This document shows, piece after piece, positions 5,397-32,664 of a DNA stretch of 64,000 bases. This stretch comes from an uncultured Myxococcales bacterium (lineage in GTDB: Bacteria; Myxococcota_A; UBA9042). The translations under genes and the position numbers were made by a program. Under the pieces are notes generated by a model. The model was not told the DNA's origin, did no database searches, and saw only the letters and a list, made by a program, of their open reading frames with translations. The DNA is taken from assembly GCA_903842345.1 (NCBI GenBank), contig CAIMLR010000036.1, forward strand, positions 248,001 through 312,000, in the 5' to 3' direction. Positions within the stretch are counted from its first letter, which is position 1. Every line of letters begins with the position of its first letter.

Positions 5397-5489
5397 CCGG
5401 GAGTTTTGCTGCTTGCCGCCACCGCTCGGTCTGGCTACGCTCGCGTGGTACCCAGCCGGTGTTCGAGTCGCGGCAAATCGAGGAAAATC

Positions 5490-7469
5490 ATGCGTGTTCT
5501 GTCCACATTCCTGCTGATCGCCGCGGCATTGACCGGACTCCAAGCCTGCAGCGACGACAGCGGCGTGCAACCACAGGTCTCGACCACCAGCGGCGGCACG
5601 GACGGCGACGCTGCGATCGCCGACAACGACGTGTGCTTTGACGTGTGGTGCGGCGCGCTGCCGGACGGCACGACCGTCATTCCCGACCAATGGGTGACCA
5701 AGGACGGGGTCGTCGTTGCGCCCGATGGCAACATCGTCAAGGACGGCGCGATCATCGAACCCGACGGCGCAATCCTGCTGCCCGACGGTCAGGTGATCCA
5801 GCCCGACGTGCCGATTTTTGTCCCGGACGGCGCGATCCTGCTCCCCGATGGCCAGATTGTTGACCCGGACGGCACCGTCATCGAGCCCGACGTGCAGCCG
5901 TGCATCCCGACGACAGAAACGTGCAACGGCCTGGACGACAACTGCGACGGCCAAATCGACAACGGCTTCTTGTGCAACGATGGCCAACCGTGCACGGTGG
6001 ACAATTGCGCGGGCATCGACGGCTGCCAGCACGCACCGGCGCCGTTTGCGACGGCCTGCGACCTCGACGGCAGCGCCTGCACGCAGGACCACTGCCTCGC
6101 CGGCAAGTGCGTCGCGGGCGGCGTACCGAATTGCGGCGACCCCGATCCCTGCACCGCGGACAGCTGCGACCCGACCAACGGCGCGTGCGTTCACACGCCA
6201 AAGACTGGCCCTTGCGACGACGGCAACGGCTGCACCACCGGCGACACGTGCCAAGGCGGCTGCGTTGCCGGCCCGCAAAAAGTGTGCAATGACAACAATT
6301 CCTGCACGTTGGATGGCTGCGATCCGGGGACTGGCCAGTGCACGTACACGCCATTCGCCGCCGGCGTCAGCTGCAACGATGGCAGCAAGTGCACGTACAG
6401 CGACCAGTGCGCCAATGGCGTCTGCCTGGGCAAGCCGCTCAACTGCGACGACGGCCTGCTCTGCACCGATGACCTGTGCGAACCGACGCAGGGCTGCCAA
6501 CACCCGCCGCTGGACGGCATCGCCTGCAACGACGGCCTGCCCTGCACCACCGGCGACGTGTGCACTGGCGGCTTGTGCAAGGCGCAAGGCACGTTGGGCT
6601 GCGACGACGGCAATCCCTGCACCATCGACGCGTGCGCCAACGCCGGGGCATGCAGCCACACCGCGACATCCGCTGCGTGCGATGACGGCACGCTGTGCAC
6701 GGTTGGGGACAGCTGCGCCACCGGCGTCTGCGTCGGCAAACAGTCGAGTTGCGACGACGCCAACCCGTGCACGACCGATTCGTGCGATCCGAAAATCGGC
6801 TGCGTTTTTGCCGACAACAACGTGCCCTGCAACGACGGGAACGCATGCACAGTCAGCGACGCCTGCACCGGCGGCACGTGTTTGGGCCAGGGCACAAACT
6901 GCGACGACGGCATTCCGTGCACCAAGGATCTCTGCGACGCGGCGAGCGGTGGCTGCAGCCACACGCCCGACAAGGCGCTCTGCGACGACGGCGAAATCTG
7001 CACCTTGGACGCCTGCCTGACGGCGACGGGCTGCAAGCACGACCTGATCCCCAAGTGCTGCGGCGGCTCGCAGTGCGCGGCGGACGAGGCGTGCATCCAG
7101 TACCCGGACAACCTGCAGCCGTTCTGCGCCAAGACCTGCAACAGCGGGGCGGATTGCGCGGGCTCCTGCTGCTACATGACGTACACGACCAAGCACTGCC
7201 TCACGCCGACGTATCAGGCGGAATGCTGCGGCACGACGGAATACTGGGCCACGGATGCGGAGCCGTACGGGTGTGGCGTCGGCGGCAAGGGCCAGTGCGT
7301 GAATTGGCCAAACAAGACGCCGCCGGCATGGCCGAGCAAGACGGTGGCGTGCGTCAACAAGTGCACGAAGAACTCGGACTGCCCGGGCAGCTGCTGTGGC
7401 CAGGACACGATGGGCACGCAGAACTGCATCGCGGACGGGTACCAGAGTCAGTTCTGCCCCGGATTCTAG
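5490..7469 (+). CDS. Cys-rich repeat lipoprotein with PDG repeats and MopE-like motif
   Basis: Surface lipoprotein of 659 residues, function unknown. Signal MRVLSTFLLIAAALTGLQAC puts the lipidated Cys at 20. Residues about 50-130 form a run of short repeats of the type I-x-PDG-x-I (APDGNIV, EPDGAILLPDGQVI, VPDGAILLPDGQIV, DPDGTVIEPDV), regular enough to suggest stacked turns. Then comes a putative metal-binding motif of the MopE type (CNGLDDNCDGQIDNG), followed by about a dozen Cys-rich units built on CDDGxPCTxDxCxxxxGC. The C-terminus has further Cys clusters (CAGSCC, CPGSCC). GAGGAAA precedes the ATG at 5490. The last 4 bp overlap the stop of the convergent kinase gene. Confidence 0.82.
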   Translation: MRVLSTFLLIAAALTGLQACSDDSGVQPQVSTTSGGTDGDAAIADNDVCFDVWCGALPDGTTVIPDQWVTKDGVVVAPDGNIVKDGAIIEPDGAILLPDGQVIQPDVPIFVPDGAILLPDGQIVDPDGTVIEPDVQPCIPTTETCNGLDDNCDGQIDNGFLCNDGQPCTVDNCAGIDGCQHAPAPFATACDLDGSACTQDHCLAGKCVAGGVPNCGDPDPCTADSCDPTNGACVHTPKTGPCDDGNGCTTGDTCQGGCVAGPQKVCNDNNSCTLDGCDPGTGQCTYTPFAAGVSCNDGSKCTYSDQCANGVCLGKPLNCDDGLLCTDDLCEPTQGCQHPPLDGIACNDGLPCTTGDVCTGGLCKAQGTLGCDDGNPCTIDACANAGACSHTATSAACDDGTLCTVGDSCATGVCVGKQSSCDDANPCTTDSCDPKIGCVFADNNVPCNDGNACTVSDACTGGTCLGQGTNCDDGIPCTKDLCDAASGGCSHTPDKALCDDGEICTLDACLTATGCKHDLIPKCCGGSQCAADEACIQYPDNLQPFCAKTCNSGADCAGSCCYMTYTTKHCLTPTYQAECCGTTEYWATDAEPYGCGVGGKGQCVNWPNKTPPAWPSKTVACVNKCTKNSDCPGSCCGQDTMGTQNCIADGYQSQFCPGF

Positions 7470-10400
7470 AGCGGATCCGCCACGCACCGCGCGCCGAGAC
7501 TGAAGGCGAAGAACCGCGGACTCCGCTCGTTTTGCACGGCCAGCGAATGCAGCCCATCGGCAATCAGCATGCTGCACTCGCCGCCCACGATCATCCGGAG
7601 CGCGCTCGCCCGGGCGCCCGGCGGCGTCGTGGACGTCCACTCGCTGAGATTGCCGGCCAGCGCCAGCACGCCATACGGGCTCGCGCCATCGGGAAAATCT
7701 GCCACCGGCGACGTGTGAAACCACGGATCAGGCGTGTCCCGCAGGTTGACCCGCCCCGCGAGCTCGCCGTTGCCCCACGGCAGGTTGCGGCGCGGCGACG
7801 GATTGGCCAGCTTGCCCGCCCCGTCGAGCGTCACGCCGCCGCGCCCCGCTTTTGTCCATTCCTGCACCGTCGGCAGGCGCTTGCCCTGCCACGCACAGAA
7901 CGCCTCCGCGGCGTAGGCATCGAGCGCGCTCACCGGATGATCGGGCTTCGTCGCGTCGTGGATGACGCTGTCCGGCGGATAGTCCGGCACGCCCTCGCCG
8001 GTCAGTTGCTCATTGCGGGCGTAGACCGCGTACCAAGCATTGGCCACTTCCGTCCGATCGATCAGGAAGTTCGGCAGCGTGACCTGCGTCTCGGGCGAGG
8101 TCGTCAGCCGGCCGGGAATCGGCGGCTCGCCTTCCCCGCCAAACACGAACGGCCCGGCCGGAATCGCCGCCATGTCCGCACGGGAGGCCGCACACGTCGG
8201 CACGGTCAGGTACAGCGGAATCGGCCCGCGGTTGCGCTCAACGTACCCCGGCAGGCTCCGGAGCCGCAGGAGGGACGGCGCGCAGCGTTCACCCTGCCGA
8301 CCGCGCCCGGTCACTTGCAGAAACGCCGGGCCGGATCGCGTCTCCAACTCCACCGTCCACCGGCCATCGCGCAAGTGCGGCTGGCCCATCTGGACGAACC
8401 GCGGATCGCGGCGGACCCCGGGCTGATGCGGATCGCGCGGATCGATGTCAAAAAGCGTCGCCTTGAGCTGAGCGAACTGCGCCGCGGCAGCGGGCACGGC
8501 CTTCCCCGCGTGCGGATCCCAGTCGACAAGTTCCAGCTCCAGCCGCGACAGACCGGTATCGCCCGCCGCGAGTGCAATCTGCGCCGCCTGTTGCTGAGTC
8601 GTCTGCTCCCGGCGGGACAGCTCCGCGGCCGTCACCAAGGACGCGACGGTCACGGTCGCTGCGAGCATCAGCGCGCCTACCACCAGCCAGCGGGCCCGCC
8701 GCCGGCGCGCCAGACCGACCACTTCGCCGTGCTGCAGGAAGTCCATGGCCTGGCGCGACAAACCGGACAGCTCCGCCCGCAGCCGCCGCCTGGCGTCGGC
8801 AATGCCATCGAGCGGCCAGACTTCGTCCTTCGGCTTGCCCCGGCTGGCCCACAGCCGCGCCGCCTCCTCCACTTCCGCCGCCGCCAGACGCTCCTCTGAG
8901 CTCTCCTCCAGCCAGCGCACCAGCTGCGGCCACGTGCGCAGCAGCGATTCATGCGCCAGCTCCAGCACGGCGTCGTCATTGGCCACGCGCGACCGGCGAA
9001 CCGTCAGCAGCCGCGCCGCCGTCAGCCGTTCCAGCACGACTTCCGCCCGCGGCCCCAGACCATCCAGCGCCGTTTGTCGCTGCATCGCGCGGCGCGCCCC
9101 GTCGATCGCCACAAGCCGCAGCAACAGCCGCCGGGCGACCGCCACGTCCGCGGGCGACAGCCCCTCAAACACGGATTCCGCGTGGGTCGCCAGCGCGCCC
9201 GCCACGCCGCCAATCGCCTCGTACTCGGCGCGCAACAGCCGCTGTGTGCGCTGATCCCGCCGTTCCCAGAGCGCCGCCCCGGCAAATTGCAGAAGCGGCA
9301 GCGCGGCGGGAAGACCGCTCAGCTCCGCGACGATGCGGTCGATGACCGTCGCGTCGTCCCACGTGTAGCCCAGGCGCTCGAGCGGGCGCGTCGCGGCCTC
9401 CCGCAGATGCCGATCGTCCAGCCGCCGCAGCACCAGGACGTGGGCCAACGCCGCCGCCATCGCCTCGCCGCCCGCGACGCGCGCGAGAAAGTCGTCGCGC
9501 AACGTGAAGACCACGCGCACCACGTCGTCCACCGGATCCGCAGCGCGGGCGATGGCCGTCAGAAACGCCAGCGCCTCCTCCGGCGGACACCCGTGCGTCA
9601 CGACCTCCTCCAGTTGGTCGACAAACAGCAGCAGCCGCGTATGGTTCTGCTCGGCCATCTGGTGCAACCGCACGTTGACCTGCGTCGGCGCCGCCAGCAT
9701 TTCCCGCGCCAATTCCACCACTTGATCCCGCGGCGGGTTGGTCGGCCGGCGCGGATCCGCCGTGTCCTGCGCCAACAGCCGGGTGGCCAACGCGGCGAGC
9801 GGGCGCGCGCCAGGCCGCAACGTCACGATTGTCCACGGACCCTGCTCGCGCAGCCGCGGCAACAGTCCCGCTTGGACAAACGAGCTCTTGCCGGCGCCCG
9901 AAGGTCCGACAATCGGCATGACCGTCGCGATCCGCAGCCGTTCAACCGCAGCGTCCACTTCTGCGTCCCGGCCAAAGAAGAAGCCGGCATGGCGCTCCTC
10001 AAACGCCAGCAGCCCGCGAAACGGCGCATCGCCTGTGCGGGAATCGCCGCCGTCGCGCAGCAGCAGCGACTCCAGCAACTGCGCCGTACCCGCCGCGTTT
10101 GGCCGCTCCAGCGGATCGCGATCGCAGAGCGACAGGACCAACTGCTGTAAATCGCTGCTGATGCCCGCGATCGGCCGAATCACCGTCGCCTCGTCCAGCA
10201 CCCGCATGTGCATCGGCCGGCCATCGCCGCCTGGCCCCTCGAACGGCCGATGGCCAGCCAGCATCTCGTACAGCATCATGCCGAGCGCCCACATGTCCGC
10301 CGCTTCTGTCGGCAGATCGCCGCGCCACTGCTCGGGCGCCATGTAGCCCGGCGTCCCCGCCACGGTGTTCCTCTCGTCCGAGCCTGGACTCGTCGTCAGC

Positions 10401-10981
10401 GTCTCCACCACCCGCGCGATGCCAAAATCGACCACGCGCAACCGTCCGTCCATAGGCAGCAGCACGTTCTCCGGCTTCAGATCGCAGTGGATGATGCGCG
10501 CCGCGTGCGCCGCCTCCAGCGCGCGGGCGATCGCCAACGTGATGCGCAAGGCTTCCCGCTGCGTCGGCGGCGTTGCCACAAGCCGTTCGCGCAGGCTCGT
10601 CCCCTCGATGTATTCCAGCGCGAGGTACGGCGACCGGCCCCACCGGCCAATGTGGTGAATCGTCACGATGTTGGGATGCGACAGCCGCGCAGTCAGGCGC
10701 GCCTCCGCCATCAACGCGACGATGCCGTCCGCGTCGAGCCGGTCCTCGCGGATCAGCTTGAGCGCCACCAGCCGCCCCAGCCGCGTGTCGCGGGCCAGCA
10801 GCACGCGGCCCATGCCGCCCTGACCGATCTGGCGCAGCACGCGAAAATGGTCGATGTGCAGGCCAATCGCCGGCGTTTCCAGCGCGTCGAACGTGTCGTC
10901 AAGCCGCCGCTGCACGTCGACCTGCGTCGTGTGAAACGACGCATCGCCCGACTCCTTCACGCGTGGCGGGGGGGTAGACAC
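7466..10981 (-). CDS. Kinase - nSTAND NTPase - TM - FGE-like receptor 1
   Basis: Multidomain signalling protein of 1171 residues. The Ser/Thr kinase domain spans about 45-305: GQGGMG loop, VALK Lys75, catalytic HCD (165-167), DFG 185, APE 215. A STAND-type NTPase (nSTAND1-like) follows from about 321, with Walker A GPSGAGKS at 359-366 and LLLFVDQLEE as Walker B. One TM helix lies near 765-785. The C-terminus (about 938-1171) is an FGE-sulfatase (SUMF1)-like fold (AAIPAGPF, RTEVANAWY, LPTVQEW, GGECS, FSLGARC). The kinase has Cys in place of Arg in HRD, and the FGE domain lacks the paired catalytic cysteines of true formylglycine-generating enzymes, so it is more likely a ligand-binding module. 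Paralogue of the gene at 12447-16058. Confidence 0.93.
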   Translation of the reverse strand: MSTPPPRVKESGDASFHTTQVDVQRRLDDTFDALETPAIGLHIDHFRVLRQIGQGGMGRVLLARDTRLGRLVALKLIREDRLDADGIVALMAEARLTARLSHPNIVTIHHIGRWGRSPYLALEYIEGTSLRERLVATPPTQREALRITLAIARALEAAHAARIIHCDLKPENVLLPMDGRLRVVDFGIARVVETLTTSPGSDERNTVAGTPGYMAPEQWRGDLPTEAADMWALGMMLYEMLAGHRPFEGPGGDGRPMHMRVLDEATVIRPIAGISSDLQQLVLSLCDRDPLERPNAAGTAQLLESLLLRDGGDSRTGDAPFRGLLAFEERHAGFFFGRDAEVDAAVERLRIATVMPIVGPSGAGKSSFVQAGLLPRLREQGPWTIVTLRPGARPLAALATRLLAQDTADPRRPTNPPRDQVVELAREMLAAPTQVNVRLHQMAEQNHTRLLLFVDQLEEVVTHGCPPEEALAFLTAIARAADPVDDVVRVVFTLRDDFLARVAGGEAMAAALAHVLVLRRLDDRHLREAATRPLERLGYTWDDATVIDRIVAELSGLPAALPLLQFAGAALWERRDQRTQRLLRAEYEAIGGVAGALATHAESVFEGLSPADVAVARRLLLRLVAIDGARRAMQRQTALDGLGPRAEVVLERLTAARLLTVRRSRVANDDAVLELAHESLLRTWPQLVRWLEESSEERLAAAEVEEAARLWASRGKPKDEVWPLDGIADARRRLRAELSGLSRQAMDFLQHGEVVGLARRRRARWLVVGALMLAATVTVASLVTAAELSRREQTTQQQAAQIALAAGDTGLSRLELELVDWDPHAGKAVPAAAAQFAQLKATLFDIDPRDPHQPGVRRDPRFVQMGQPHLRDGRWTVELETRSGPAFLQVTGRGRQGERCAPSLLRLRSLPGYVERNRGPIPLYLTVPTCAASRADMAAIPAGPFVFGGEGEPPIPGRLTTSPETQVTLPNFLIDRTEVANAWYAVYARNEQLTGEGVPDYPPDSVIHDATKPDHPVSALDAYAAEAFCAWQGKRLPTVQEWTKAGRGGVTLDGAGKLANPSPRRNLPWGNGELAGRVNLRDTPDPWFHTSPVADFPDGASPYGVLALAGNLSEWTSTTPPGARASALRMIVGGECSMLIADGLHSLAVQNERSPRFFAFSLGARCVADPL

Positions 10982-11098
10982 TGGAAACTCCTACGGAGAC
11001 GCCAACTGTTGCCGGGATCGTGACCCAATGCGCCGGCGGTGTCCATCCACATCTTGACGACCGCGGCGGGGCGACGGACGCTGCCCCTGGAGGCACGG

Positions 11099-11674
11099 AT
11101 GACGACGCGGCGGCCACACGCGATGTTGGTGGAAAGGCTGCCGGGCGAGGACGCCGGGCTGGATGCGTGTGTGGCGCGGGTCCGCGATGCGCGGGTGCAC
11201 ATCGTGCGGTTTGACAGCCTGTGGCAAGCGTTGAGCGCGCTGCGGCGCCTGCAGCTCGAGCGGGCGTTTGGCGCGCTGGCGGTGCTCGATCTGGTCGGCC
11301 ACGGCGAGGCGGGCGCGCTGTCTGTCGGCGACGCGCTGTTGACCGCGGACCCGCAAGCGCAGCGGGTGTTGGCGCAGCTTGCCAATCCGCCTGCGCTCAT
11401 CGACGGGGCAACGGTGCTGCGGCTGCTTGGCTGCGGCGTCGGGGTCGGCGGACTGGCCCACGAACTCCCGCTGGGCGCGGCGGGGGATGGCCCGCTGTTG
11501 GCGCTCGCGCTGAAGCGTCGGCTGGGCTGTCGCGTGCAACTCGCGCTGCGCGGTGTCGATCCGCACGATTTTGCCAACTCCGGCTTCGCGACGCCGGCGT
11601 CGTTGGCGGAAGCGCCCGACGCGGAACGGTGCACGCTTGTCGCGCTGGCTACGGCAAGCCCAGACGCGCCTTGA
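11099..11674 (+). CDS. Caspase/CHAT-like (DUF4347-type) putative protease
   Basis: Protein of 191 residues. It has the two signatures of the caspase-like hemoglobinase/CHAT fold: a hydrophobic strand ending in His (AVLDLVGHGEAG, His68) and, 44 residues later, a second strand ending in Cys (TVLRLLGCGVGVGG, Cys112). The pattern resembles DUF4347/CHAT proteins (strand-SHG, then strand-GC). The ATG at 11099 is chosen because GGAGG lies 5 nt upstream; the frame continues 20 codons further to a GTG at 11039. No signal peptide is present, so it should be cytosolic. It is divergent from kinase receptor 1, with 117 bp between starts. Its 3' end overlaps the next gene by 26 bp tail-to-tail. Protease activity is inferred from the His/Cys pair only. 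Confidence 0.6.
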   Translation: MTTRRPHAMLVERLPGEDAGLDACVARVRDARVHIVRFDSLWQALSALRRLQLERAFGALAVLDLVGHGEAGALSVGDALLTADPQAQRVLAQLANPPALIDGATVLRLLGCGVGVGGLAHELPLGAAGDGPLLALALKRRLGCRVQLALRGVDPHDFANSGFATPASLAEAPDAERCTLVALATASPDAP

Positions 11675-12389
11675 GCACGTGGTCAATCCGGACGGTTTGC
11701 GGTCCTGCGTCGGCCGGATCAAAACCTTCAAGGCCAGCGTCATCCGCAGTCAGGCGCCAGATTGCCACGGTCCCGCGGCTGTCGCGCACGGGCACATCGC
11801 CGGCACCGAGCACGCACACTTCCCCGCTCGGACCGGCGCGCAACACCCGCAGGTCCGCCATGCCGTTGCGCCGCAAGGTCGCGGGCCACTTATCGCCGCC
11901 GCCGGAGATCAACCCGTCGCTGCGGCCCAAGGCGTCGCCCAGCCTGACGGTGCCGATGCTCCCAACAGTGGGCGTGATCGTCGTCTCCGGCGTGTCCTTC
12001 CAGACGTGCGCGGGGTTGCCCCAATCCACCGCGTACGGGTTGCCGTTGATGGTCAACGTGACGGCGTTGCCGTTGGCGAGGCGGACGGTCGCGTTGAACG
12101 ACGTGTAGCTGCTGTAGTCGGTACCGCCATAGCTCGCGCCCGCGCTCTGCACGCCGGTGATGCGCAACGTCGCGGCCTTGGCGGCCTTCAAGTTGAGGCG
12201 TCCGACCGAGCCGACAGCGCGGCCGATTGTCGTGATGGCGTTGACGAGGACGTCCGTGTTCCAGTTCGCCGCGTAAGACACGCCAGCGACGGTGAAGCTG
12301 AACGCGCCGGTGCTCGTGTCAAACGCAGTGATGGTGGCGTGAACGGCGACGCCGATCGCTTGAAAGGCCGGAAGAGTGGGGTATGTCAT
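11649..12389 (-). CDS. Uncharacterised protein with internally duplicated beta domain
   Basis: Protein of 246 residues with no recognised family, no signal peptide and no TM segment. The N-terminal two thirds contain an internal duplication: SFTVAGVSYAANW followed by TTIGRAVGSVGRLNL, and later TLTINGNPYAVDW followed by TTITPTVGSIGTVRL. Both copies are predicted beta-rich (alternating hydrophobic residues, Gly, Asn, Thr). The C-terminal third (SGEVCVLGAGDVPVRDSRG, TVAIWRLTADDAG) looks like a further small beta domain. A strong ribosome binding site (AAGGAGA) precedes the ATG. It is 57 bp downstream of kinase receptor 2 on the same strand, so it probably shares its transcript and may be its partner or substrate. 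That role is inference. Confidence 0.75.
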   Translation of the reverse strand: MTYPTLPAFQAIGVAVHATITAFDTSTGAFSFTVAGVSYAANWNTDVLVNAITTIGRAVGSVGRLNLKAAKAATLRITGVQSAGASYGGTDYSSYTSFNATVRLANGNAVTLTINGNPYAVDWGNPAHVWKDTPETTITPTVGSIGTVRLGDALGRSDGLISGGGDKWPATLRRNGMADLRVLRAGPSGEVCVLGAGDVPVRDSRGTVAIWRLTADDAGLEGFDPADAGPQTVRIDHVLKARLGLP

Positions 12390-12446
12390 GCCGAAATCTC
12401 CTTGAGGGGGTCAGGAAATCGATGCTGGCCCGACGTGCAGCGGCCG

Positions 12447-15400
12447 TCAAGGCGCGCCGGTCGCAGTTTTCTGACGCTGCGCGCAGCGAAATCCGAGGCT
12501 GAAGCTGAAGAACCGTGGACTGCGCTGATTCTCAACGGCGAGGGAATGCATGCCATCTGCCCATTCCGCGCCCCAGTCGCCGCCGCGGATCGTGCGCAGC
12601 GCATGCGCGTTGCCCGGTGGCGCGGATGCGGTCCATTCTGCGACGTTGTCGGCCAAACCGAGCACGCCGTACGGACTCGCACCCGCGGTGTCCGCCGTCA
12701 CGGGTGCCGAGAGTGCCCACGGATCGTCCGCGCTCCGCAGGTTGAACTGCGCACTCGGCGCGGCAAGCCCCCACGGCAAATTGCGCCGCGGAACCGGATT
12801 CACGACCTTCCCGGCGGCGTCCAGCGTCAAGCCACCGCGACCGGCCTTGGTCCATTCCTCGGTCGTCGGGAGCGTCTGGCCGAGCCACGCGCAGAACGCA
12901 TCCGCAGTCGGCGCATCGACGGCGACGACGGGGCGATCCGGCTCGCCCAGCCCCTGCCGACGCATGTTGCTCGGGTAGTCGGGCGCCAGCACGCCGGTCG
13001 CCGGACTATTGGCGACAAACGCGGCGAACCACGCGTTGGGCACTTCCGTCCGGTCGATGGCAAAGGCCGGCAGGTCGATCTGCCGCTCTGCGTCCGGCGT
13101 CAGGTGCCCCGCGATCGGCGGATTGCCTTCGCCGGCGAGGAGGAACGGCCCCGCGGGAATCGCGACGAGATCGGCGCGCGCCGCCGCGCACGTCGGAATC
13201 AACAGCGGCAAGGGCACGGGCCCATGGGCGCGCTGGCTCCACCCGGGCAAATGCGGCAGTTTGAGCCACGACGGCGGACAGCGCTCGCTGCCGCGACCAC
13301 GCCCGGCGATCTGGAGAAATACGGGGCCAGAGCGCGTCTGGAGTTGCGCGCGCCAGTGGCGATCGGCGGTCTCCGGCGCGGAGAGCTGGACAAAATGGCC
13401 CTCGCGCGGACGGGTCGGCGTGGCCGCGTCTGGCCCATCGACCTCCCAGAGCGCCACGGCGAGCTGCGGAAACTCGCTTGCGGCCACGGGTTGCGCGCGG
13501 AGGTTTTGCGCATCCCAGTCAAAAAGCTGGAGGTCCAGCGCGACGAGCCCGGTATCGGCCGCCGCCAACGCCCGCTCGGTTGCGGCGCTCTCGATCAGCC
13601 GCGCCTGACGTTGGGTCTCGCGCTCCTTGCGGGCAAACGCCAGCGCCGCGGCCACGGACGTCACGGTGATGAGCAACGCCAAAGCGAGGCTGCCAACGAG
13701 CGCCCATCGCTTGCGGCGCCGGTCACGCCGACCCAGCGTCTCACCCAGCTCCAGAAAATCCCGCCCAGCTTGCGACAGCGCCGAGGCCTCCGCGCGCAGC
13801 CGCCGACGCGCGTCGAGCACGCCTTCCAATGGCCACACCTCGCGCGGCGGACGACCGCGACCTTGCCAGACCCGCGCGGCGTCCTCCACTTCACCGAGCA
13901 CCAGGCGTTCTTCTGAGCTCTCGTCGAGCCACTTGCGCAGCTGCGGCCAGTCGCGCAGCAGGGAGTCGTGGGCCAGTTCAAGGACCGCCTCACCCGCGGC
14001 GGTCAAGCGCGATCGCCGGACCGTCAGCAAACGCGCATTGGCCAGGCGCTCCACAAGTCGTTCACCTGGCTCGCCCAAGCCTTCCAGCGCCCGCGACCGC
14101 GGAACGACCCGCCGTGCACCATCGGACGCCACAAGCCGGAGCAGGAGCACGCGCGCCATCTCCAGATCCTGTGGCGACAGGCCGTCAAACACCGCTTCCG
14201 CGTGCGCCGCAAGCGCGCCTGCGACGCCGCCGATCGCCTCGTAGTCCGCGCGCCGCAGCAGGTGATTGCGCTGGTCGCGCCGCTCCCACAGCGCCGCGCA
14301 CGCGAATTGCAGCAGCGGCAGCGCGGACGCCAGCCCGTGCAACTCCGCGACGATGCGATTGACGACCTCCGGATCGTCCCACGCGTAACCCAGCCGGGTC
14401 AGCGGCAGCGTCGCGGCTTGACGCAGCAGTTGGTCGTCCAGCCGCTGCACGACAAGCACGTTGGTCAGCGCCGCGGTCATCGCCTCGCCCACTGCCACGC
14501 GCGCGAGGAAGTCGTCGCGCAGCGTGACAACCACGCGCACTTGATCGTCGACGGCGTCCGCCGCCAGCGCGACCGCGTCCAGGAACGCCCGCGCTTCCTC
14601 TGGCGGACAGCCCTGCGTCGCGACTTCTTCCATTTGGTCGACAAACAGCACGACGCGCGTGCCCGTCGCATCCGCCAGGCCGTGGAGCAAGACGTTGGCT
14701 TGACCGGGACGGTCGAGGAGCGTCGCCGCCAACTCCATCGCCGCGTCGCGTTGCGCCTGCGCCTCGCGTTTGGACTCGATTGTCTCGCTCCCCACAAGAC
14801 GCGCCGCCAGCGCGGCCAGAGGATGCAGCCCGGGACGCAGCGACAGCACCGTGATCGGCCCCTGCTCGCGCAGTCGCGGAATCACGCCTGCCTGCACAAA
14901 CGAGCTCTTGCCGGCGCCCGACGGCCCGACAACCGGGAGGATTGTCGCCGTGCGCAACCGCTCCACCGCCGCGTCAACCTCGGTCTCCCGGCCAAAGAAG
15001 AACGCCGCGTGGCGCTCCTCAAACGGCATGAGCCCGCGAAAGGGCACGTCCGCGGACGGCACGGCACCCTCGTCGCGCGTCAGCAGCCGCTCCAGCCCGT
15101 GGGCAACCTCTGCCGCCGTCGGCCGCAGCGCCGGTCGACGCGCCAACATGCCGTCGACAAGCTGCCGGAACTCCTCGGACAGCCCGACCAACGGCGGCGC
15201 GTGCAGCTCAGGATCGAGCACGCGCAGGTGCATGGGGCGACCATCGTTGTTCGGCCCCTCAAATGGCCGATGGCCCATGAGCATTTCATACAGGATCACG
15301 CCCAGCGCCCAGATATCCACGGCCGCCGACAGCGGCTCGCCCAGCCACTGCTCAGGCGCCATGTAACCCGGCGTGCCCGCGACGTGCGCCTTGCCCGCCT

Positions 15401-16058
15401 GCCGTTCATCCCACGGCCGATTGTCGATCACGCGCGCGATGCCGAAATCCACCACGCGCAGCCGACCGTCCGGCGGCACCAGCACGTTCTCGGGCTTCAG
15501 GTCGCAGTGGCTGATCAGCGCGGCGTGTGCCGCCTCCAGCGCGCGGGCGATCGGGAGCGCCATGCGCATGGCCTCGCGTGCGTGCAGCAGATGACCGCCG
15601 AGGCGATCGCGCAGCGAGCCGCCTTCCACGTACTCGAGCGCGAGGTACATCGCGTCGTCCCAACGGCCAATGTGGTGAATGGTGACGATGTTCGGATGGG
15701 AGAGCGCCGCCGTCATCCGCGCTTCTTCCAGGAACGCCGCCAGCGCCAGCTTGTCCAGCCGGTCTTCCCGAATCAGCTTGAGCGCCACGAGGCGACCCAA
15801 TTGCGTGTCGCGCGCCAGCAGCACGCGGCCCATGCCGCCCTGGCCAATCTGCCGCACGACGCGGAAATGGTCGATTTCATAGCCGACCTCGATCGTCGGC
15901 AGCGCATCAACGCCGCGGCTCACCGGGCGCTGCGCATCGAAGGCGGTCGTCATGGAACTGATGAGCCGCGGACTGACGCCAAGACGGGAATCGAGCCCAT
16001 CTGGTTCCAGGGTCTCTTGGTGGGCGATTTGGCTGTCCGGCGCGGCGCTTTTGGTCAA
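12447..16058 (-). CDS. Kinase - nSTAND NTPase - TM - FGE-like receptor 2
   Basis: Paralogue of the 7466-10981 gene, 1203 residues, same domain order. The kinase domain (about 64-325) has GQGGMG, VALK Lys94, HCDLKPENV in place of HRD, and DFG. The STAND NTPase has Walker A GPSGAGKS (about 376-383) and VVLFVDQMEE. A single TM lies near 785-806 (ALVGSLALALLITVTSVAAA). The FGE-like domain runs from about 964 to about 1198 (VAIPAGPFLLAGEG, RTEVPNAWF, LPTTEEW, IRGGDWG, FSLGFRC). No catalytic FGE cysteines are visible. The longest start is TTG at 16058 with GAGG nearby. An ATG at 15953 is an alternative, losing 35 residues of unremarkable sequence. Segments around Walker A are nearly identical to receptor 1, so the pair arose by duplication. 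Confidence 0.93.
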   Translation of the reverse strand: MTKSAAPDSQIAHQETLEPDGLDSRLGVSPRLISSMTTAFDAQRPVSRGVDALPTIEVGYEIDHFRVVRQIGQGGMGRVLLARDTQLGRLVALKLIREDRLDKLALAAFLEEARMTAALSHPNIVTIHHIGRWDDAMYLALEYVEGGSLRDRLGGHLLHAREAMRMALPIARALEAAHAALISHCDLKPENVLVPPDGRLRVVDFGIARVIDNRPWDERQAGKAHVAGTPGYMAPEQWLGEPLSAAVDIWALGVILYEMLMGHRPFEGPNNDGRPMHLRVLDPELHAPPLVGLSEEFRQLVDGMLARRPALRPTAAEVAHGLERLLTRDEGAVPSADVPFRGLMPFEERHAAFFFGRETEVDAAVERLRTATILPVVGPSGAGKSSFVQAGVIPRLREQGPITVLSLRPGLHPLAALAARLVGSETIESKREAQAQRDAAMELAATLLDRPGQANVLLHGLADATGTRVVLFVDQMEEVATQGCPPEEARAFLDAVALAADAVDDQVRVVVTLRDDFLARVAVGEAMTAALTNVLVVQRLDDQLLRQAATLPLTRLGYAWDDPEVVNRIVAELHGLASALPLLQFACAALWERRDQRNHLLRRADYEAIGGVAGALAAHAEAVFDGLSPQDLEMARVLLLRLVASDGARRVVPRSRALEGLGEPGERLVERLANARLLTVRRSRLTAAGEAVLELAHDSLLRDWPQLRKWLDESSEERLVLGEVEDAARVWQGRGRPPREVWPLEGVLDARRRLRAEASALSQAGRDFLELGETLGRRDRRRKRWALVGSLALALLITVTSVAAALAFARKERETQRQARLIESAATERALAAADTGLVALDLQLFDWDAQNLRAQPVAASEFPQLAVALWEVDGPDAATPTRPREGHFVQLSAPETADRHWRAQLQTRSGPVFLQIAGRGRGSERCPPSWLKLPHLPGWSQRAHGPVPLPLLIPTCAAARADLVAIPAGPFLLAGEGNPPIAGHLTPDAERQIDLPAFAIDRTEVPNAWFAAFVANSPATGVLAPDYPSNMRRQGLGEPDRPVVAVDAPTADAFCAWLGQTLPTTEEWTKAGRGGLTLDAAGKVVNPVPRRNLPWGLAAPSAQFNLRSADDPWALSAPVTADTAGASPYGVLGLADNVAEWTASAPPGNAHALRTIRGGDWGAEWADGMHSLAVENQRSPRFFSFSLGFRCAQRQKTATGAP

Positions 16059-26728: not shown

Positions 26729-27598
26729 CTAGACTGTCGCCTGCCAAGCATCTACGTCGAGCACGCGCAGGTCGTCAATCTCAGCGCGGTGCGCCAGGAT
26801 CTGGGAAATCAGCTCCAGCTTCTCCGCCGGCGTGCACGTCCGCTGCCAGAGGTCATCCGTCACCGACGTGAAACCCAATGTCTGCAGCGGCAGCAGCGCC
26901 GCATCGGAGGCCGGCACGACTTCAATCCGGCACACCGCGCGGTCGCGCACCACGTCCTGCAGCAGCGCGTCGCCGATCAGCCGACCTTCGCGCAGCTCAA
27001 CCACGCGATCCACGAGCTGGCGGACTTCACTTGTGCGATGCGAACAGAGGATCAGCACGGCGTCGCTCGGCCGCGCCGCAACCAGCGCAAAGAACGCGTT
27101 GCGCGCCTGCGTGTCGAGGTTGGCAGTCGGCTCGTCGGCAACCAGAATCTGGGCGTCGGCGGCCAGCGCCATCGCGGCGAGGATTTTCTGCTTGGTGCCG
27201 CCCGACAAATCGCGGAGCCGCACTTTGGCGACGCGCTCGTAGTCCACGCCCAGCACACCCGCCAACTCCGCCACGCGCTGGACCGGCTGGCCGCGCAGTT
27301 GGCAGGTTGTGCGCACGAGATCCTGCACGGACGCGTCCAGCGGCGGCGCCACCTGCGGAATGTACGCGACGTTGCGGAGCGCTTCCTGTGGGTTCGCGGC
27401 AACGTCCGCGCCGTGGATCTGCACGCGGCCCTGACAGGCGAGCAAGCCGAGCGAACAGCGCATCAACGTCGTCTTGCCGGAGCCGTTGCTCCCGACAAAC
27501 GCGACGCGCTCACCCGCGCCGATGCGGAGGGAAACGTCGTCGAGGGCTTGCACCGCGCCGTAGCGCTTGGACACATGGTCCACGACCAGCACACTCAT
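26729..27598 (-). CDS. nosF: NosF, ABC ATPase for NosZ maturation
   Basis: ATPase of the NosDFY complex, 289 residues. Walker A is GSNGSGKT (36-43), the signature LSGGTKQK, Walker B ILVADEPTANLD and the H-loop SHRTSE; all are complete. It overlaps nosD by 4 bp (ATGA) and precedes nosL by 6 bp, so the genes are translationally coupled. It energises transfer of a sulfur- or copper-related species for CuZ assembly together with NosY and periplasmic NosD. Confidence 0.95.
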   Translation of the reverse strand: MSVLVVDHVSKRYGAVQALDDVSLRIGAGERVAFVGSNGSGKTTLMRCSLGLLACQGRVQIHGADVAANPQEALRNVAYIPQVAPPLDASVQDLVRTTCQLRGQPVQRVAELAGVLGVDYERVAKVRLRDLSGGTKQKILAAMALAADAQILVADEPTANLDTQARNAFFALVAARPSDAVLILCSHRTSEVRQLVDRVVELREGRLIGDALLQDVVRDRAVCRIEVVPASDAALLPLQTLGFTSVTDDLWQRTCTPAEKLELISQILAHRAEIDDLRVLDVDAWQATV

Positions 27599-28971
27599 GG
27601 CATCACCTGATTGAGTTTGTGCGGCTGCATCGCCGGCAAGGCGTCGCTCAGCAGCAGTTTGGACGCCAGCACCGGCACCGCCCGCGCCACGCCATCCAGC
27701 GTCGCGAGCGCCGCCGTCCCGTGCAGAAACTTCAGCGTCGGCCGCGTATCCGTCAGTTCCGTCGACAGCCGCTTGATCTGCCAGGCCACGTCGCCCGTGC
27801 CGTCGTGGTTCAGGTCAAAACCGGCATAATCGCTCCAATAGTTGCGCGACCACTCCGCCGTCGTCGCATCGCCGCCGCCGTCCACTTCCGCGGTCTCCGC
27901 ATTCTCGTGCAGGTCATTGCCGGTCACGATCACGCCGTGCGGCTGCGCATGCATGCGCAAGCCAACGTTGTTGAGCGCGATGACGTTGTCAGCGATCTTC
28001 AGCGGTTTGTCCGGCGAGCGCGGCGTCTGGTCAATGTACATGCCCGCGGTGTTGCCCACGAGCCAGTTGTTGCGCACCGTGACGTCGTCACTGTCCTTGA
28101 AGCCCAGGCCGATGCCCGCAGGTCCACGCGCGCCAGCGAGGACGTTGCCCTCGACCAACAGGCGCTCGCTGTACATCACGAAGATGCCAACAACGTTGTC
28201 GATGACCGCAGAATTGCGGACGATCGCGTCATGAGCGTACATGAAGTGGCTGCCATAGCGGCTGCCGCGGACGACGTTGCTGTCCAAAGTGACGTGCCGC
28301 GAGTACCACACGACCAAGTCGCGGCTTGTTTCCACGAGGCAATGGCTGACGGTGGAGCCGTGCGATTCCCAGAGCTTGATGCCATCGCCGCGCATTTCGG
28401 CGACGCCGTCGCGGCCGATGACGTGGAGGCGGTCGAGTTGGCAATCGTGGCACGCCTGCAGAGACGCGCCGAACAGGACGCGATCGAGAAAGAGCCGCGT
28501 CAGCCGGTTGTGCTGGCCCCGCAGCTTGACGGCGCTGTCCTCGTGCGTGTGGCGACTGCCAGTGCCGGCGATCGTCAGATTGTCGATGAGCGCGCCGTCC
28601 GCCTCAATGTCCAGCACCGTGTCCGTTCCGCTGCCTTGCAGGACGGTGCCCGGACCCATGCCGTGCAAGTGCACATTGCGGCGGATCTGCCAGTCGCCGT
28701 GAAACACCTGTTGGGGCAGCCAAATCTCCGGCGGACCGGCCGGATCGGCCAGCCAGGTCCGCAGTTGCTGTTCATCGTGGGCAACCGCCACCGTCGTCGT
28801 CGGCTGTTGCGGCAGCGGCCCCACGTCCATCTTGCCGTTTTCGTACAGCCCGTGAATCGGCAGGTGCTGCACGTCCGTCCGCGTCTCGTTGGCATGCGAG
28901 GTGCGCGGCGCCGGCGCGCTGCAACCCAGCAACGCCACCAGCGTCACGGTGATGGACGCGTGGCGACGCAT
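27595..28971 (-). CDS. nosD: NosD, periplasmic beta-helix maturation protein
   Basis: Periplasmic component of the NosDFY complex, 458 residues. N-terminal signal MRRHASITVTLVALLGC has a good lipobox (LLGC), so NosD appears lipid-anchored. The body is a right-handed parallel beta-helix with NosD/CASH-type rungs: repeated D-N-L-T-I and N-x-V-x-x-N patterns such as DNLTIAGTGS, HVTLDSNVVRGS, VTVRNNWLVGNTAG and IVTGNDLHENAE. The late segment WSRNYWSDYAGFDLNHDGTGD is a hallmark of NosD proteins. The start codon overlaps the stop of the preceding membrane-protein gene (TGATG), and the end overlaps nosF. Confidence 0.95.
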   Translation of the reverse strand: MRRHASITVTLVALLGCSAPAPRTSHANETRTDVQHLPIHGLYENGKMDVGPLPQQPTTTVAVAHDEQQLRTWLADPAGPPEIWLPQQVFHGDWQIRRNVHLHGMGPGTVLQGSGTDTVLDIEADGALIDNLTIAGTGSRHTHEDSAVKLRGQHNRLTRLFLDRVLFGASLQACHDCQLDRLHVIGRDGVAEMRGDGIKLWESHGSTVSHCLVETSRDLVVWYSRHVTLDSNVVRGSRYGSHFMYAHDAIVRNSAVIDNVVGIFVMYSERLLVEGNVLAGARGPAGIGLGFKDSDDVTVRNNWLVGNTAGMYIDQTPRSPDKPLKIADNVIALNNVGLRMHAQPHGVIVTGNDLHENAETAEVDGGGDATTAEWSRNYWSDYAGFDLNHDGTGDVAWQIKRLSTELTDTRPTLKFLHGTAALATLDGVARAVPVLASKLLLSDALPAMQPHKLNQVMP

Positions 28972-29684
28972 CAGTTCACCCGATACGGGACGTTGCCGAG
29001 CACGAGCTTCTTGGGACAGGTTGCGCCGCAGCTGTCATGCAGCGGGCAGGTCCGGCAGAGACGATAGCGCACGATCATCGCCAACGTCATCGATCCCAAC
29101 GCCGCGATCGCCAACCAGAACCCGATGAGCGGCATCGCGTAGGTTTCAAACTGGCCGATCTTGCCCCAGCCGAGGAACTGCGGCGTGAACATCGGAATGT
29201 TCAGCGGCGCGTGGCGGTCCAGCGTGTGGCCAAAGTGGTAGAGCCACCACACGGAATCGCCGACAAAGCCGGCCGGAAACAGGAATCCCGGCACGATGAG
29301 CAGCCAACTCCACTTTCTGCCGGCGAGGAGCGCGAACGCCGCCGACATCAGCCCGACGAGCCCGACGCCCCAGACCGCCCACTGCCTCTCGAACGACGCC
29401 GCCTCGTCCAAGCCCTTCATGCCGATATAGTGATTCAGCATGTTGATTTCCTTGGCATCGCCACCCAACCCGGTGAGTGAGATGTCAAGAACCAGGCCGT
29501 TGGGATACTGCGGCGCGAACAGGTAGAACTGCCACCACGGCCGCAGGTAGGCGAAGACCCACAGCACGAGCGCGGCGGCAACGAGCACCACGACCAGCCA
29601 GCGCTGCAGCCGCGCGCGATTTTCCGCCTTGCGTGACGCCGCCGCGGGATTTGGTTGACTGTCACTTGGCGATTGCGTGTTCAT
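28971..29684 (-). CDS. Four-TM membrane protein of the nos operon (NosB-like position)
   Basis: Integral membrane protein of 237 residues with four clear TM helices (about 30-50, 102-122, 128-150, 180-200). It has a C-terminal cytosolic or exposed Cys cluster CRTCPLHDSC followed by GATCP. Trp and His residues (DSVWWLYHFGHTLDRH) lie near the membrane face of TM3. Genes for small polytopic proteins commonly follow nosZ in clade II nos clusters (for example nosB), and this gene holds that place between the cytochrome and nosD. The family identity is not proven. It could help electron transfer to, or assembly of, NosZ. It starts 36 bp after the cytochrome stop. Confidence 0.7.
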   Translation of the reverse strand: MNTQSPSDSQPNPAAASRKAENRARLQRWLVVVLVAAALVLWVFAYLRPWWQFYLFAPQYPNGLVLDISLTGLGGDAKEINMLNHYIGMKGLDEAASFERQWAVWGVGLVGLMSAAFALLAGRKWSWLLIVPGFLFPAGFVGDSVWWLYHFGHTLDRHAPLNIPMFTPQFLGWGKIGQFETYAMPLIGFWLAIAALGSMTLAMIVRYRLCRTCPLHDSCGATCPKKLVLGNVPYRVN

Positions 29685-29720
29685 GGAGCCCTCCGGCGTT
29701 TGCCGTGAAGCGCCCGTGCC

Positions 29721-30158
29721 CTACAGCGTCTTGAGGAAGGCGAGCAGCGCGGGCAATTCCGTATCGGCCGCGACGTTCTGATTGGCCATCGGGGTCATCA
29801 ACGCCGCGAACAGTTTCTTGGCCTCAGGGTCTTCTTTGACCATGACTTCCGGCTTGAGAATCATCTTTCCCATCCAGGTCAGCGACCGCCGAGCCGTCAC
29901 GCCTTTCAAGCCTGGGCCAACGAGTTTCACGTCCGTGGGGTTGTGGCAGGCTTTGCAGCCCTTGCTGACGAACAGCGCCTCGCCCTGCTTGGGATCGGCT
30001 TTGGCCACGAGGTCGAGGAGACCTGCCGGCACCGTGATGGTCGCCGGGCCGTCGGCCGCGCTGTCGCCCGCGGGGGCCGCGCCTTCCTGCTTGTTGCAGC
30101 CGAGTGCAGCGAGGGAGGCGACGAGGCCGGCAAGGAAGATTTTGTGTTGGGTTTTCAT
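29721..30158 (-). CDS. Lipid-anchored mono-heme cytochrome c of the nos operon
   Basis: Class I-like cytochrome c, 145 residues. Signal sequence ends SLAALGC (Cys21), suggesting a lipoprotein. A Gly/Ala/Pro linker follows, then the heme site CKACH (68-72). A Met-containing segment (LMTPMANQN) in the C-terminal half supplies the probable axial ligand, and the terminal helix LPALLAFLKTL is typical of cytochrome c. The gene lies directly after nosZ, separated by 176 bp that contain a strong hairpin. Its position makes it the likely immediate electron donor to NosZ; that role is inferred from context and from clade II nos clusters. Confidence 0.9.
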   Translation of the reverse strand: MKTQHKIFLAGLVASLAALGCNKQEGAAPAGDSAADGPATITVPAGLLDLVAKADPKQGEALFVSKGCKACHNPTDVKLVGPGLKGVTARRSLTWMGKMILKPEVMVKEDPEAKKLFAALMTPMANQNVAADTELPALLAFLKTL

Positions 30159-30231
30159 GGTTTACCTGCGAGATGAGTGTCGTCGGACTGCGCGTTCAGC
30201 AACCATGCCGGCGGCGCGGGGGGCTGACCGG

Positions 30232-30269
30232 GGTCCGTGGGCGCCAGGATTCCCTGTGCGCCCACGGTC
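30232..30269 (-). promoter_or_regulatory. Stable hairpin between nosZ and the downstream nos genes
   Basis: Inverted repeat CCGTGGGCGC (30235-30244) and GCGCCCACGG (30258-30267), a perfect 10-bp stem with a 13-nt loop. Beyond one T/T mismatch it extends by two further G-C pairs (30232-30233 with 30268-30269). No T-run follows on the minus strand, so it is not a classic intrinsic terminator. It may act as an mRNA processing or stability element, letting nosZ be expressed at a different level from the maturation genes. Confidence 0.55.
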
Positions 30270-30334
30270 CAGTCGGATGTCGGCGTCGGTGCTCGACCCA
30301 ACGACGAGCATTCAAGCGACATCCATGTCCAGTG

Positions 30335-32425
30335 TCAAGGAGAAAGTGTGGGGGGCTGTTCGGTGCTCGGCCCGCCCGGCACAGTTGTCGACACAGGAAT
30401 CGTCGCCGGCGCGCCCTTGGGCCGCACCAGCATGTAGCCCGCCATCTCCAAGTGCAACGCAGAGCAGAACTCTGTGCAGTACATCGGATAGACGCCTGCC
30501 TTCGTCGCGATGAAATCGACGTTTTCATGCTTGCCCGGTTCCAGGGACAAGTCGATGTTGTGCATGTTGATCGTGAAGCCGTGCGTCTGGTCCTCAGACT
30601 GCTCCAGCGACGTGATGTGGATGAAGACGTGCTCGCCCTCTTCCACTTCAAACTGGTCCGGCGTGAAGTGGCTGCGAATCGCGGTCATGAACACGTGCGT
30701 GCCGTCCGCGCGCTTCTCGATGCGTTCCTTGCCGGATTCCACCGCGTTCGGGTCCTTGGCGTTGGTGTAGATGTTGGTGCCCGGCTTGTAGATCTTGATC
30801 GGGTGGAGCTTGTCCGCCTTGATCATCTGCGAATAGTGCGGCTCGCCAATGCCGATCGGCGCGTCTGCGAGGATCTTCATCTTCTCGCCCGTCGTGTCGA
30901 TCAACTGGAAGTTCTGCGGATACAGCGGACCGACGCCGTTGAAGCGGTCGATCGACATCTTGTTCATCGCGACGACCCACTTGCCGTCCGGGCTGACCGT
31001 GTCGCCTTCCGCCGCCATGATGTGGCCGATGTTGTAGTGCACCGGGATCTTCTCCACGACCTTCAGGTCCTTGAGCGACCATTTGGCGACAACGGATTCC
31101 AGGAACACGCTGGTGTAGGCAAAGCCCTTGTCGTCAAAAACGGTGTGCAGCGGGCCAAGGCCGATCTCGCACTGGCCGTCGATCGAGTCCTTGAAGCTGA
31201 GGATCGGCACGCCATACGCGTCCTTGCCTTCGTATTTCTTGGCGTCGATGAGCGCCTTCATTTTGGCGAAACTGTAGACCGTCGTGTGCGTATCCAGCTT
31301 GCCGCCGACGATGACGCGCGTGCCGTCAGGCGTCACGTCCGCGCCGTGCGGGGACTTGGGCTCGCCCACCAGCGTGAGCACGCCTTCCGCGGCCGCAACG
31401 GGCAGCCGGAGCACTTTCACGCCCAGGATGTCCTCAGCCTTGCCGGCGTTGACCAGCTCTTCCGCTTTCTTCCAGTTGATGACGTGGAGGTAGTCCATGT
31501 CGTTTTGCGAAGCGCCGGATTCGATCGGCGGCTTGCCCTGCAGCGTGCCGCCGGTGGCCATTTCCGTGTTGAACGAGTTCACAAACGCCCAACCGTCAGA
31601 GACCAGCTTGCCGCAATCGGCCAGGTCCTGCGTGTACGGCGGCAGTTCGATCGCCCACGACTTCGCGACGTCGATGCGCCCCTTGGTGCGGTCGAATTTC
31701 CAGAACATCGCGAGACCGCGGTACTTGTCCTTGTACTCGGACAGCGGCGCGTAGGCGCGGCCGAACGGCACGGGGTACTGACTGGTCTCAATGACGTAGT
31801 TGGTGTTCGGATCGACGAACGCGCCGCCGTGATCCGAACCGACCAGCGTATTCACGACGATCTGCTTGGTGTTGAAGTCCTCCAGATCGACGACAGCCAC
31901 GCGACCGTTCGACTTGTCATTGACGAACAAGAACTTGCCGTCGTAGTCGCCCGCTGTCTCAGACAGATTCGGATGGTGAACGTCCGCCCACGTGATGCTG
32001 CGGCCATCCTGCTTGCCGCTCTCGATGATCTTGTTGCTCTCGCCGCCGTACCCGTAGCCCTGCCACGGCTCGGGCGTGAAGACGCCGATGACTTTCAGGA
32101 GCCGCATCGACGGCACGCCAAGCACGAGCACTTGGCCAGACTGGCCGCCTGACGCGAAGATCAGGTAGTCGTCTTTCTTGCCGGTCGGCATGTAGGTCTT
32201 GAGCGCCGCATCGACGTCACTCTCACTCAAGCCGCGCGCGGCCATCAGGTCCTTGATGGAGGCCGAGGCGCCGAGGTTCACGGAAGGTCCGCCAGAACCT
32301 CCTGCGGGCGCACTGCCGGGTTTGGGTGGCGGCTGGCAGCCAAAGGCGGCAAGCGCAGCGACACTGGCGAAGGCTGCCAAGAGCTGGCGTCCCCGCGCGT
32401 GAAATGTCGGTTCGTGGGCTTTCAT
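30335..32425 (-). CDS. nosZ: Nitrous oxide reductase, clade II (Sec-type, probable lipoprotein)
   Basis: Reduces N2O to N2 outside the cytoplasmic membrane; 696 residues. The ATG at 32425 has GGAGGAG 5 nt upstream. The signal ends ALAAFGC, without a twin-arginine motif, which is the clade II type, and the Cys suggests lipid anchoring. CuZ histidines are visible in DVHHPNLSE (about 147), LDTHTTVYS, GLGPLHTVFDD and GIGEPHYSQM on the beta-propeller. The CuA site in the C-terminal cupredoxin domain is complete: YCTEFCSALHLEM (about 645-660). A long open frame upstream of the start is not NosZ-like. It heads an operon with a cytochrome, a membrane protein and nosD-F-L-Y. Confidence 0.97.
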   Translation of the reverse strand: MKAHEPTFHARGRQLLAAFASVAALAAFGCQPPPKPGSAPAGGSGGPSVNLGASASIKDLMAARGLSESDVDAALKTYMPTGKKDDYLIFASGGQSGQVLVLGVPSMRLLKVIGVFTPEPWQGYGYGGESNKIIESGKQDGRSITWADVHHPNLSETAGDYDGKFLFVNDKSNGRVAVVDLEDFNTKQIVVNTLVGSDHGGAFVDPNTNYVIETSQYPVPFGRAYAPLSEYKDKYRGLAMFWKFDRTKGRIDVAKSWAIELPPYTQDLADCGKLVSDGWAFVNSFNTEMATGGTLQGKPPIESGASQNDMDYLHVINWKKAEELVNAGKAEDILGVKVLRLPVAAAEGVLTLVGEPKSPHGADVTPDGTRVIVGGKLDTHTTVYSFAKMKALIDAKKYEGKDAYGVPILSFKDSIDGQCEIGLGPLHTVFDDKGFAYTSVFLESVVAKWSLKDLKVVEKIPVHYNIGHIMAAEGDTVSPDGKWVVAMNKMSIDRFNGVGPLYPQNFQLIDTTGEKMKILADAPIGIGEPHYSQMIKADKLHPIKIYKPGTNIYTNAKDPNAVESGKERIEKRADGTHVFMTAIRSHFTPDQFEVEEGEHVFIHITSLEQSEDQTHGFTINMHNIDLSLEPGKHENVDFIATKAGVYPMYCTEFCSALHLEMAGYMLVRPKGAPATIPVSTTVPGGPSTEQPPTLSP

Positions 32426-32558
32426 CGTGCTCCTCCCTCGTTGGCCTGACGCGTTGAATCTGGCGCCTGACCGGTCAGCTGGCGAAACGAGCGCCTCAAG
32501 CAGGCGAGCGCGACAGCCAGCAACGTATGGGCGGGCATTCAGGCCGCACCCAACTGCG

Positions 32559-32573
32559 CGCATCTTAGATGCG
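32559..32573. promoter_or_regulatory. 15-bp perfect palindrome upstream of nosZ
   Basis: CGCATCTTAGATGCG: seven-base half-sites CGCATCT and AGATGCG around a central T. It is centred about 140 bp upstream of the nosZ start codon. The size and symmetry fit an operator for a dimeric regulator. The regulator is unknown: the half-site core GCATCT recalls NsrR-type sequences, but the orientation of the halves differs from the published consensus. Confidence 0.35.
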
Positions 32574-32648
32574 ACATTTTGTTGCGTCCAGTGCTTGCCG
32601 GACTTTCCAGTCGATTGACTGTCACAATTTTGTCCAAAGATGTCTAAA

Positions 32649-32664
32649 TGCCAAAGGAGTGCCA
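32649..32664 (-). promoter_or_regulatory. Candidate sigma-54 promoter for nosZ
   Basis: On the minus strand the site reads TGGCACTCCTTTGGCA. It has GG and GC with the required 10-nt spacing, and 10 of 12 defined positions agree with TGGCACG-N4-TTGCW. Transcription would start about 210 nt before nosZ, placing the 15-bp palindrome in the leader. Such sites occur by chance in GC-rich DNA, so this is tentative. Confidence 0.35.

Follow-up and report, generated by a model that had tools for sequence, protein, structure and literature searches.

Linked receptor, beta-protein and caspase-like genes in Myxococcota: a candidate membrane-anchored receptor-protease module

Do the two small genes lying between a pair of large kinase-STAND-FGE receptor genes belong with them, and what might such a group of genes do for its host? 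The question is raised by a locus in a 64,000-nucleotide stretch of DNA (the window) from an uncultured Myxococcales genome (5.85 Mb, 50 contigs, 95.7% complete). We compared the window genome with four sister genomes of the same genus, all of them uncultured Myxococcales MAGs, and with relatives beyond the family.

Genes of the locus

The two large genes encode full-length paralogues (~61% identical to each other), and the architecture proposed for them in the first-pass annotation, namely kinase, STAND NTPase, TM helix and FGE-like C-terminus, was borne out by Pfam and hydropathy (Table 1). In receptors B and A, respectively, Pfam matched nSTAND1 (E = 9.8e-99 and 2.1e-96), Pkinase (4.5e-51 and 7.2e-56) and FGE-sulfatase (1e-27 and 2e-26), and each protein has one strong hydrophobic segment between the NTPase and the FGE part. 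Orthologues in the sister genomes are 75-78% identical for receptor A (all four genomes) and 79-82% identical for receptor B. Pfam also found nSTAND1 and FGE in seven outgroup receptors. According to an alignment of nine receptors, the kinase residues K75, E93, D167, N172 and D185 and the Walker residues of the NTPase are invariant; the residue before the catalytic-loop Asp is Cys or Ala (HCD, HAD) in the window and Myxococcus receptors, which is of the non-RD type.

Table 1. Coordinates of the features discussed (positions in the window, or in the named locus for the second gene pairs).
Feature	Position	Strand	Details	Basis
Receptor A	12447-16058	-	1203 aa; Ser/Thr kinase, residues 66-319; nSTAND1, 339-738; TM, ~784-811; FGE-like, 962-1193	Pfam; hydropathy; orthologues
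Beta protein	11649-12389	-	246 aa; two similar small beta domains; KWP motif	AlphaFold; orthologues; dN well below dS
Caspase-like (DUF4347-like) gene	11039-11674	+	predicted dyad His88/Cys132	Pfam; alignment; AF2; Foldseek
Divergent intergenic stretch, receptor B/caspase-like gene	10982-11038		short	kept in sister genomes
Receptor B	7466-10981	-	1171 aa; kinase, residues 47-297; nSTAND1, 320-718; TM, ~763-789; FGE-like, 935 to C-terminus	Pfam; orthologues
Second beta/caspase-like pair, L048	14454-16415			
Second beta/caspase-like pair, L049	14449-16350			
Second beta/caspase-like pair, L054	3356-5026			

Known FGEs carry a catalytic pair of cysteines in a CxxxxC arrangement. On inspection, no such motif was present at the GG-x-W region of the FGE part in receptors A and B, and C1029 and C1166 are the only invariant cysteines of this part among the nine receptors, so the FGE-like part, of C-type-lectin fold, is probably a binding domain and not a catalytic FGE. 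All four invariant cysteines (C900, C930, C1029 and C1166) lie C-terminal to the TM helix; their restriction to this side fits an oxidising periplasm and an outward FGE end. Together with the single TM helix, this supports the earlier suggestion of an outward-facing FGE-like end, as a prediction. The PADLOC matches of the receptors (PD-T4-6 and mad6) reflect the generic kinase domain, and membership in these systems was not accepted. We also observed that the receptors of L096, L097, L098 and L104, which belong to other families, carry an extra N-terminal region of 200-250 aa before the kinase, with a motif like YPEESTLPLAWL and no Pfam name, which may be another adaptor or caspase-like domain.

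Since the GC content is high, several antisense frames are open at the locus. The plus-strand frame of the caspase-like gene is the only one free of stops across all five genus members, and its dN of ~0.20-0.27 against a dS of 0.6-1.2 indicates purifying selection. Two minus-strand ORFs (10991-11743 and 10957-11634) were rejected as the caspase-like gene, because their frames are broken in the sister genomes and are open by chance. The caspase-like gene between the receptors, as first annotated, is real, but it points the other way: it is the sole plus-strand member of the locus, and its tail overlaps that of the convergent beta gene. The GTG start taken here (11039) possibly lies too far upstream; some 20 codons further on, a conserved ATG (11099) is the likelier start, as it fits the AF2 model and the homologues better.

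The DUF4347 (PF14252) match of the window protein (E = 0.0073; 16.5 bits) falls below the gathering cut-off of 24.6, while 13 of 16 relatives matched DUF4347, with a best E of 1.7e-7. At only ~25% identity, His88 and Cys132 are invariant in all 16 aligned members, and the His is doubtful in one divergent relative (L089). The AF2 model (pLDDT 81.6, pTM 0.79) places H88 after a strand at 82-86 and C132 after a strand at 126-130, in an alpha/beta/alpha fold as in clan CD. The top Foldseek match was the DUF4347 T6SS effector Tce1 (probability 1.00), followed by caspases and legumain, all at an E of about 1.5e-3 or weaker; for the caspases and legumain, E was about 2e-3 or weaker and TM scores were only 0.3-0.4. 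Tce1 was also the sole PDB sequence match of the caspase-like profile (E = 0.73). As no single score is strong, the assignment rests on the pattern of matches and residues, which supports the His/Cys identity first suggested for this protein and its description as a predicted caspase-fold peptidase.

The other small gene, already described as encoding a duplicated beta domain, indeed yields two similar small domains in an AlphaFold model of moderate confidence (pLDDT 73, pTM 0.39). The protein belongs to no family in Pfam, PHROGs, PADLOC or NCBIfam; searches returned no PDB sequence match and, with this moderate model, no confident PDB or viral fold match. It is encoded by the fastest-evolving gene of the locus (orthologues in the four sister genomes are 56-60% identical, versus 66-82% for its neighbours), and its dN is well below dS, indicating purifying selection. 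Homology is clear within the family (1e-21 at L088), modest in L089 (2.5e-4) and weak outside the home family (motif V-D-[WL] ... G-x-L-x-L ... KWP), where the assignment of beta genes rests largely on gene position. The conserved W and KWP positions resemble an interaction surface.

Some further observations were made in the window and its genome. The gene adjoining receptor B (5406-7469, plus strand) encodes a Cys-rich Dicty_CTDC-repeat protein, 75-80% identical in the sister genomes, and an ORF opposite this genus-conserved gene (6191-7141, minus strand) was rejected as a lost second beta gene. A 2081-aa ORF (45900-52145, plus strand) carries nine Dicty_CTDC and four Lcl_C repeat matches and is followed directly by a predicted tRNA-SeC (52228-52324). 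Genes for a NosD-like beta-helix protein and a nitrous oxide reductase-like protein with nos_propeller and cupredoxin domains (27595-32680, minus strand) suggest N2O reduction. Outside the window, a retron-like reverse transcriptase with a GAPTSPSLSN motif (L101; G000:C15:6672-7277) is preceded by a gene whose product may be nucleoside deoxyribosyltransferase-like, making this a possible retron defence locus.

Inheritance and co-occurrence of the three genes

All five genus members share the order receptor A, beta gene, caspase-like gene (reversed) and receptor B, with the locus of one (G003) divided over two contigs. A second, divergent beta/caspase-like pair follows receptor B in three of the four sister genomes and is absent from the window genome and G004. 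These second pairs indicate that the four-gene layout is a tandemly duplicated three-gene unit (receptor, beta protein and peptidase) from which one pair has been lost; receptors A and B themselves go back to an early duplication. The first-pass annotation had treated the twin receptors enclosing the small genes as one functional unit of four genes, a reading that this duplicated unit replaces. Two further genera in the family, represented by G001 (L052) and G002 (L053), possess a single receptor and the same convergent pair of small genes turned round. G015 (L087) is arranged in the same way with a beta gene of only weakly similar sequence. The window genome also has a receptor-less beta/caspase-like pair (G000:C47, L055 9663-11585) with no kinase within 20 kb. 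A DUF4347-like/beta pair in reverse order was observed at a contig start in G004 (L088:291-1898, G004:C100), with no receptor in the stretch examined.

Outside the family, a sigma-54 activator, a small beta gene, a DUF4347-like gene and a facing receptor were found in Myxococcus sp. (L084), Corallococcus exercitus (L085) and a Myxococcaceae MAG (L086), and L105 and L106 share this gene order. The beta and DUF4347-like genes and the facing receptor occur at L097 and L098, and at L095 the receptor faces DUF4347-like and beta genes; no beta gene was recognised at L096. With a profile built from the home family only, the DUF4347-like genes of these outsiders were matched at E values of 1e-14 to 4e-2. 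Because its genes are found together, differently oriented, in further genera and families, the linkage of the trio is more than inherited synteny. In Corallococcus, a second beta/DUF4347-like pair lies near the receptor locus and adjoins a Peptidase_C14 metacaspase (L085:9228-11818; E = 9.4e-19).

A nine-receptor profile was run on 379 Myxococcota genomes, and 16 trio-type FGE receptor loci were set against 36 kinase-nSTAND1 loci without this FGE (neighbourhood matches at E < 0.01). A DUF4347-like neighbour was present at 14 of 16 FGE-type loci and at none of the 36 controls (Fisher p = 7e-11, wider profile), at 12 of 16 with the home-family-only profile (p = 9e-9), and at six or five of the eight FGE-type loci outside the family (p = 4e-6 to 5e-5), p values that overstate independence because some loci share ancestry and some were found via the peptidase and fed the profiles. 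The co-occurrence check proposed with the original grouping thus shows that the grouping is not accidental. The trio is inherited together in a myxobacterial group and occurs patchily across Myxococcota.

Both loci without a DUF4347-like neighbour by the wider profile (L103 and L104) belong to one genome, G043. At L103, what comes after the receptor is a gene for a 745-aa CHAT-domain protein (9e-15), and CHAT is itself caspase-like. At L104, the receptor gene is followed by one for a 224-aa uncharacterised protein and then by TPR-S (7.2e-14) and Trypsin_2 (7.7e-14) matches. In this small sample of two loci from one genome, the receptor appears to keep a neighbouring peptidase of changing type, and this exchange supports the earlier proposal that kinase and peptidase would act as effectors of a conflict or death system.

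Proposed function and alternative explanations

We propose, with a probability of roughly 0.45, that the three genes encode a membrane-anchored, inflammasome-like receptor-protease module. The FGE end in the periplasm would bind a ligand or damage signal, whereupon nSTAND1, on the cytosolic side, would become able to take up NTP and to cluster. Docking of the peptidase on the cluster would be the task of the beta protein, which might instead restrain the peptidase until then; the clustered peptidase would cleave cytosolic targets, and the attached kinase would gate or spread the signal. A cell under stress or infection would thereby stop growing or kill itself, and the organism, with its two duplicated receptors, would own two such alarms. 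It is plausible, as a prediction, that the module acts in immunity or cell death. A more general formulation, which we hold tentatively and at somewhat less than an even chance, is a transmembrane, outward-facing STAND receptor-kinase of Myxococcota with a constant beta-rich adaptor and an exchangeable peptidase slot (DUF4347, CHAT or trypsin), functioning as a death-receptor- or inflammasome-like surface alarm.

Several alternatives were weighed against the receptor-protease module. The least probable by far is that the small genes lie beside the receptors by accident; the opposite strand of the caspase-like gene would suit it, but the rearranged co-occurrence across genera and families, set against its complete lack among the controls, refutes it in the main. 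The most serious rival, which we consider unlikely, is a developmental or stress relay with transcription as its output, in which the kinase phosphorylates a partner, such as a sigma-54 GAF/FHA activator encoded alongside, and the peptidase does away with a repressor. GAF- or FHA-bearing sigma-54 activators flank the module in L084, L085, L086, L095, L096 and L103-L106, which suits transcriptional signalling equally well and counts against our preferred explanation; so does the stable chromosomal context of the locus, conserved across the genus unlike that of many defence islands. Two further points weigh against the module: no diversity-generating reverse transcriptase (DGR) was recognised, and the homology of the beta protein outside the home family is weak and in part positional. 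About 50 Ser/Thr kinases encoded by the window genome are likewise in keeping with a relay. However, no sigma-54 activator was recognised adjoining the locus in the window, exchange among three kinds of peptidase is typical of conflict systems, and the published DUF4347 proteins include secreted effectors.

The roles of the two small proteins could also differ from those given to them in the receptor-protease module. It is improbable, though worth considering, that the beta protein is itself the effector, made as a pro-protein which the caspase-like peptidase cleaves into its active form, in the manner of bacterial gasdermins or gated nucleases. Peptidase-activated effectors of this kind are established elsewhere (PMC12799240, PMC9079055), and the rapid evolution of the beta gene and its almost constant place beside the peptidase gene, even in the receptor-less L055 copy, would agree with such a role. 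Against it, no TM or other hydrophobic segment, nuclease motif or gasdermin-like fold was recognised in the moderate model and sequence of the protein, which found no confident PDB match, and its conserved W and KWP positions have the look of a binding face. We give still less credit to the view that the DUF4347-like protein serves for binding and is catalytically dead or no protease at all: the weak Pfam match of the window protein and the doubtful His of L089 speak for it, but the unbroken conservation of His and Cys in the alignment speaks against it. In addition, the toxicity of Tce2 in yeast needs its predicted His/Cys site, which is common to Tce1, the best structural match (PMC13323088).

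If the receptor-protease module is real, bacteria would possess, in an outside STAND sensor with a caspase-like output, something nearer to the death receptors of animals than the published STAND-FGS proteins. DUF4347, a domain whose function is unknown, would also gain a role in the cell in addition to its known settings in secreted effectors and adhesins, and a new beta-rich family would be marked as a likely adaptor. Its relatives in culturable Myxococcus and Corallococcus make the module testable.

Comparison with known systems

STAND-FGS proteins, including those with N-terminal kinases, have been proposed as counter-invader receptors, that is, as predicted conflict proteins (eLife 2021, PMC8195603). 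They share with the present receptors nSTAND1, a C-terminal FGS/FGE domain, an N-terminal effector such as a S/T kinase, and several copies per genome. Here, by comparison, a TM helix lies between the NTPase and FGE, and the receptor is accompanied by a DUF4347-like peptidase and a beta protein of its own. The FGS sensors published so far are believed to work intracellularly, whereas the receptor end in the window is predicted to be outside, which counts against our preferred explanation. Known systems often, though not universally, contain an effector-associated domain (EAD) that the NTPase shares with separate effectors, and frequently, though again not universally, a DGR; none of the four locus proteins had a Pfam match to an EAD (a divergent one could escape), and no DGR was found.

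DGR-linked STAND/C-lectin sensors have also been described (PNAS 2024, PMC10907252); they likewise combine nSTAND1 with a C-terminal CLec/FGE domain, are often paired and have peptidase genes nearby, and the text of that paper names neither DUF4347 nor Myxococcota. The window genome differs from them, since neither of its two RVT_1 matches was a DGR reverse transcriptase by motif reading (at 95.7% completeness), and DGR diversification of the FGE domain was rejected on this ground.

Tce1 and Tce2 (PMC13323088) have the His/Cys dyad in common with the caspase-like protein, Tce1 being the closest by Foldseek. Tce1 is a T6SS effector and Tce2 a related candidate, and both are described as secreted cargo, whereas the peptidase gene here adjoins that of a STAND receptor and the locus has no recognised secretion gene. 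In the open literature DUF4347 is mentioned in only four papers, neither PMC8195603 nor PMC10907252 among them, and judging by titles and abstracts none of the four places it in a kinase-STAND-FGE setting. We found neither the three-gene module nor its beta protein or outward-facing sensor described, although an earlier description is possible in subscription papers. Bacterial gasdermin and caspase-nuclease (canu) loci resemble this one in that a small protein adjoins a caspase- or trypsin-like protease; the beta protein differs in having neither a gasdermin nor a nuclease signature, and the receptor is a membrane kinase-STAND protein. The kinase-STAND-FGE architecture has thus already been published, and what is new here, as far as we found, is the module, its beta protein and the outward sensor.
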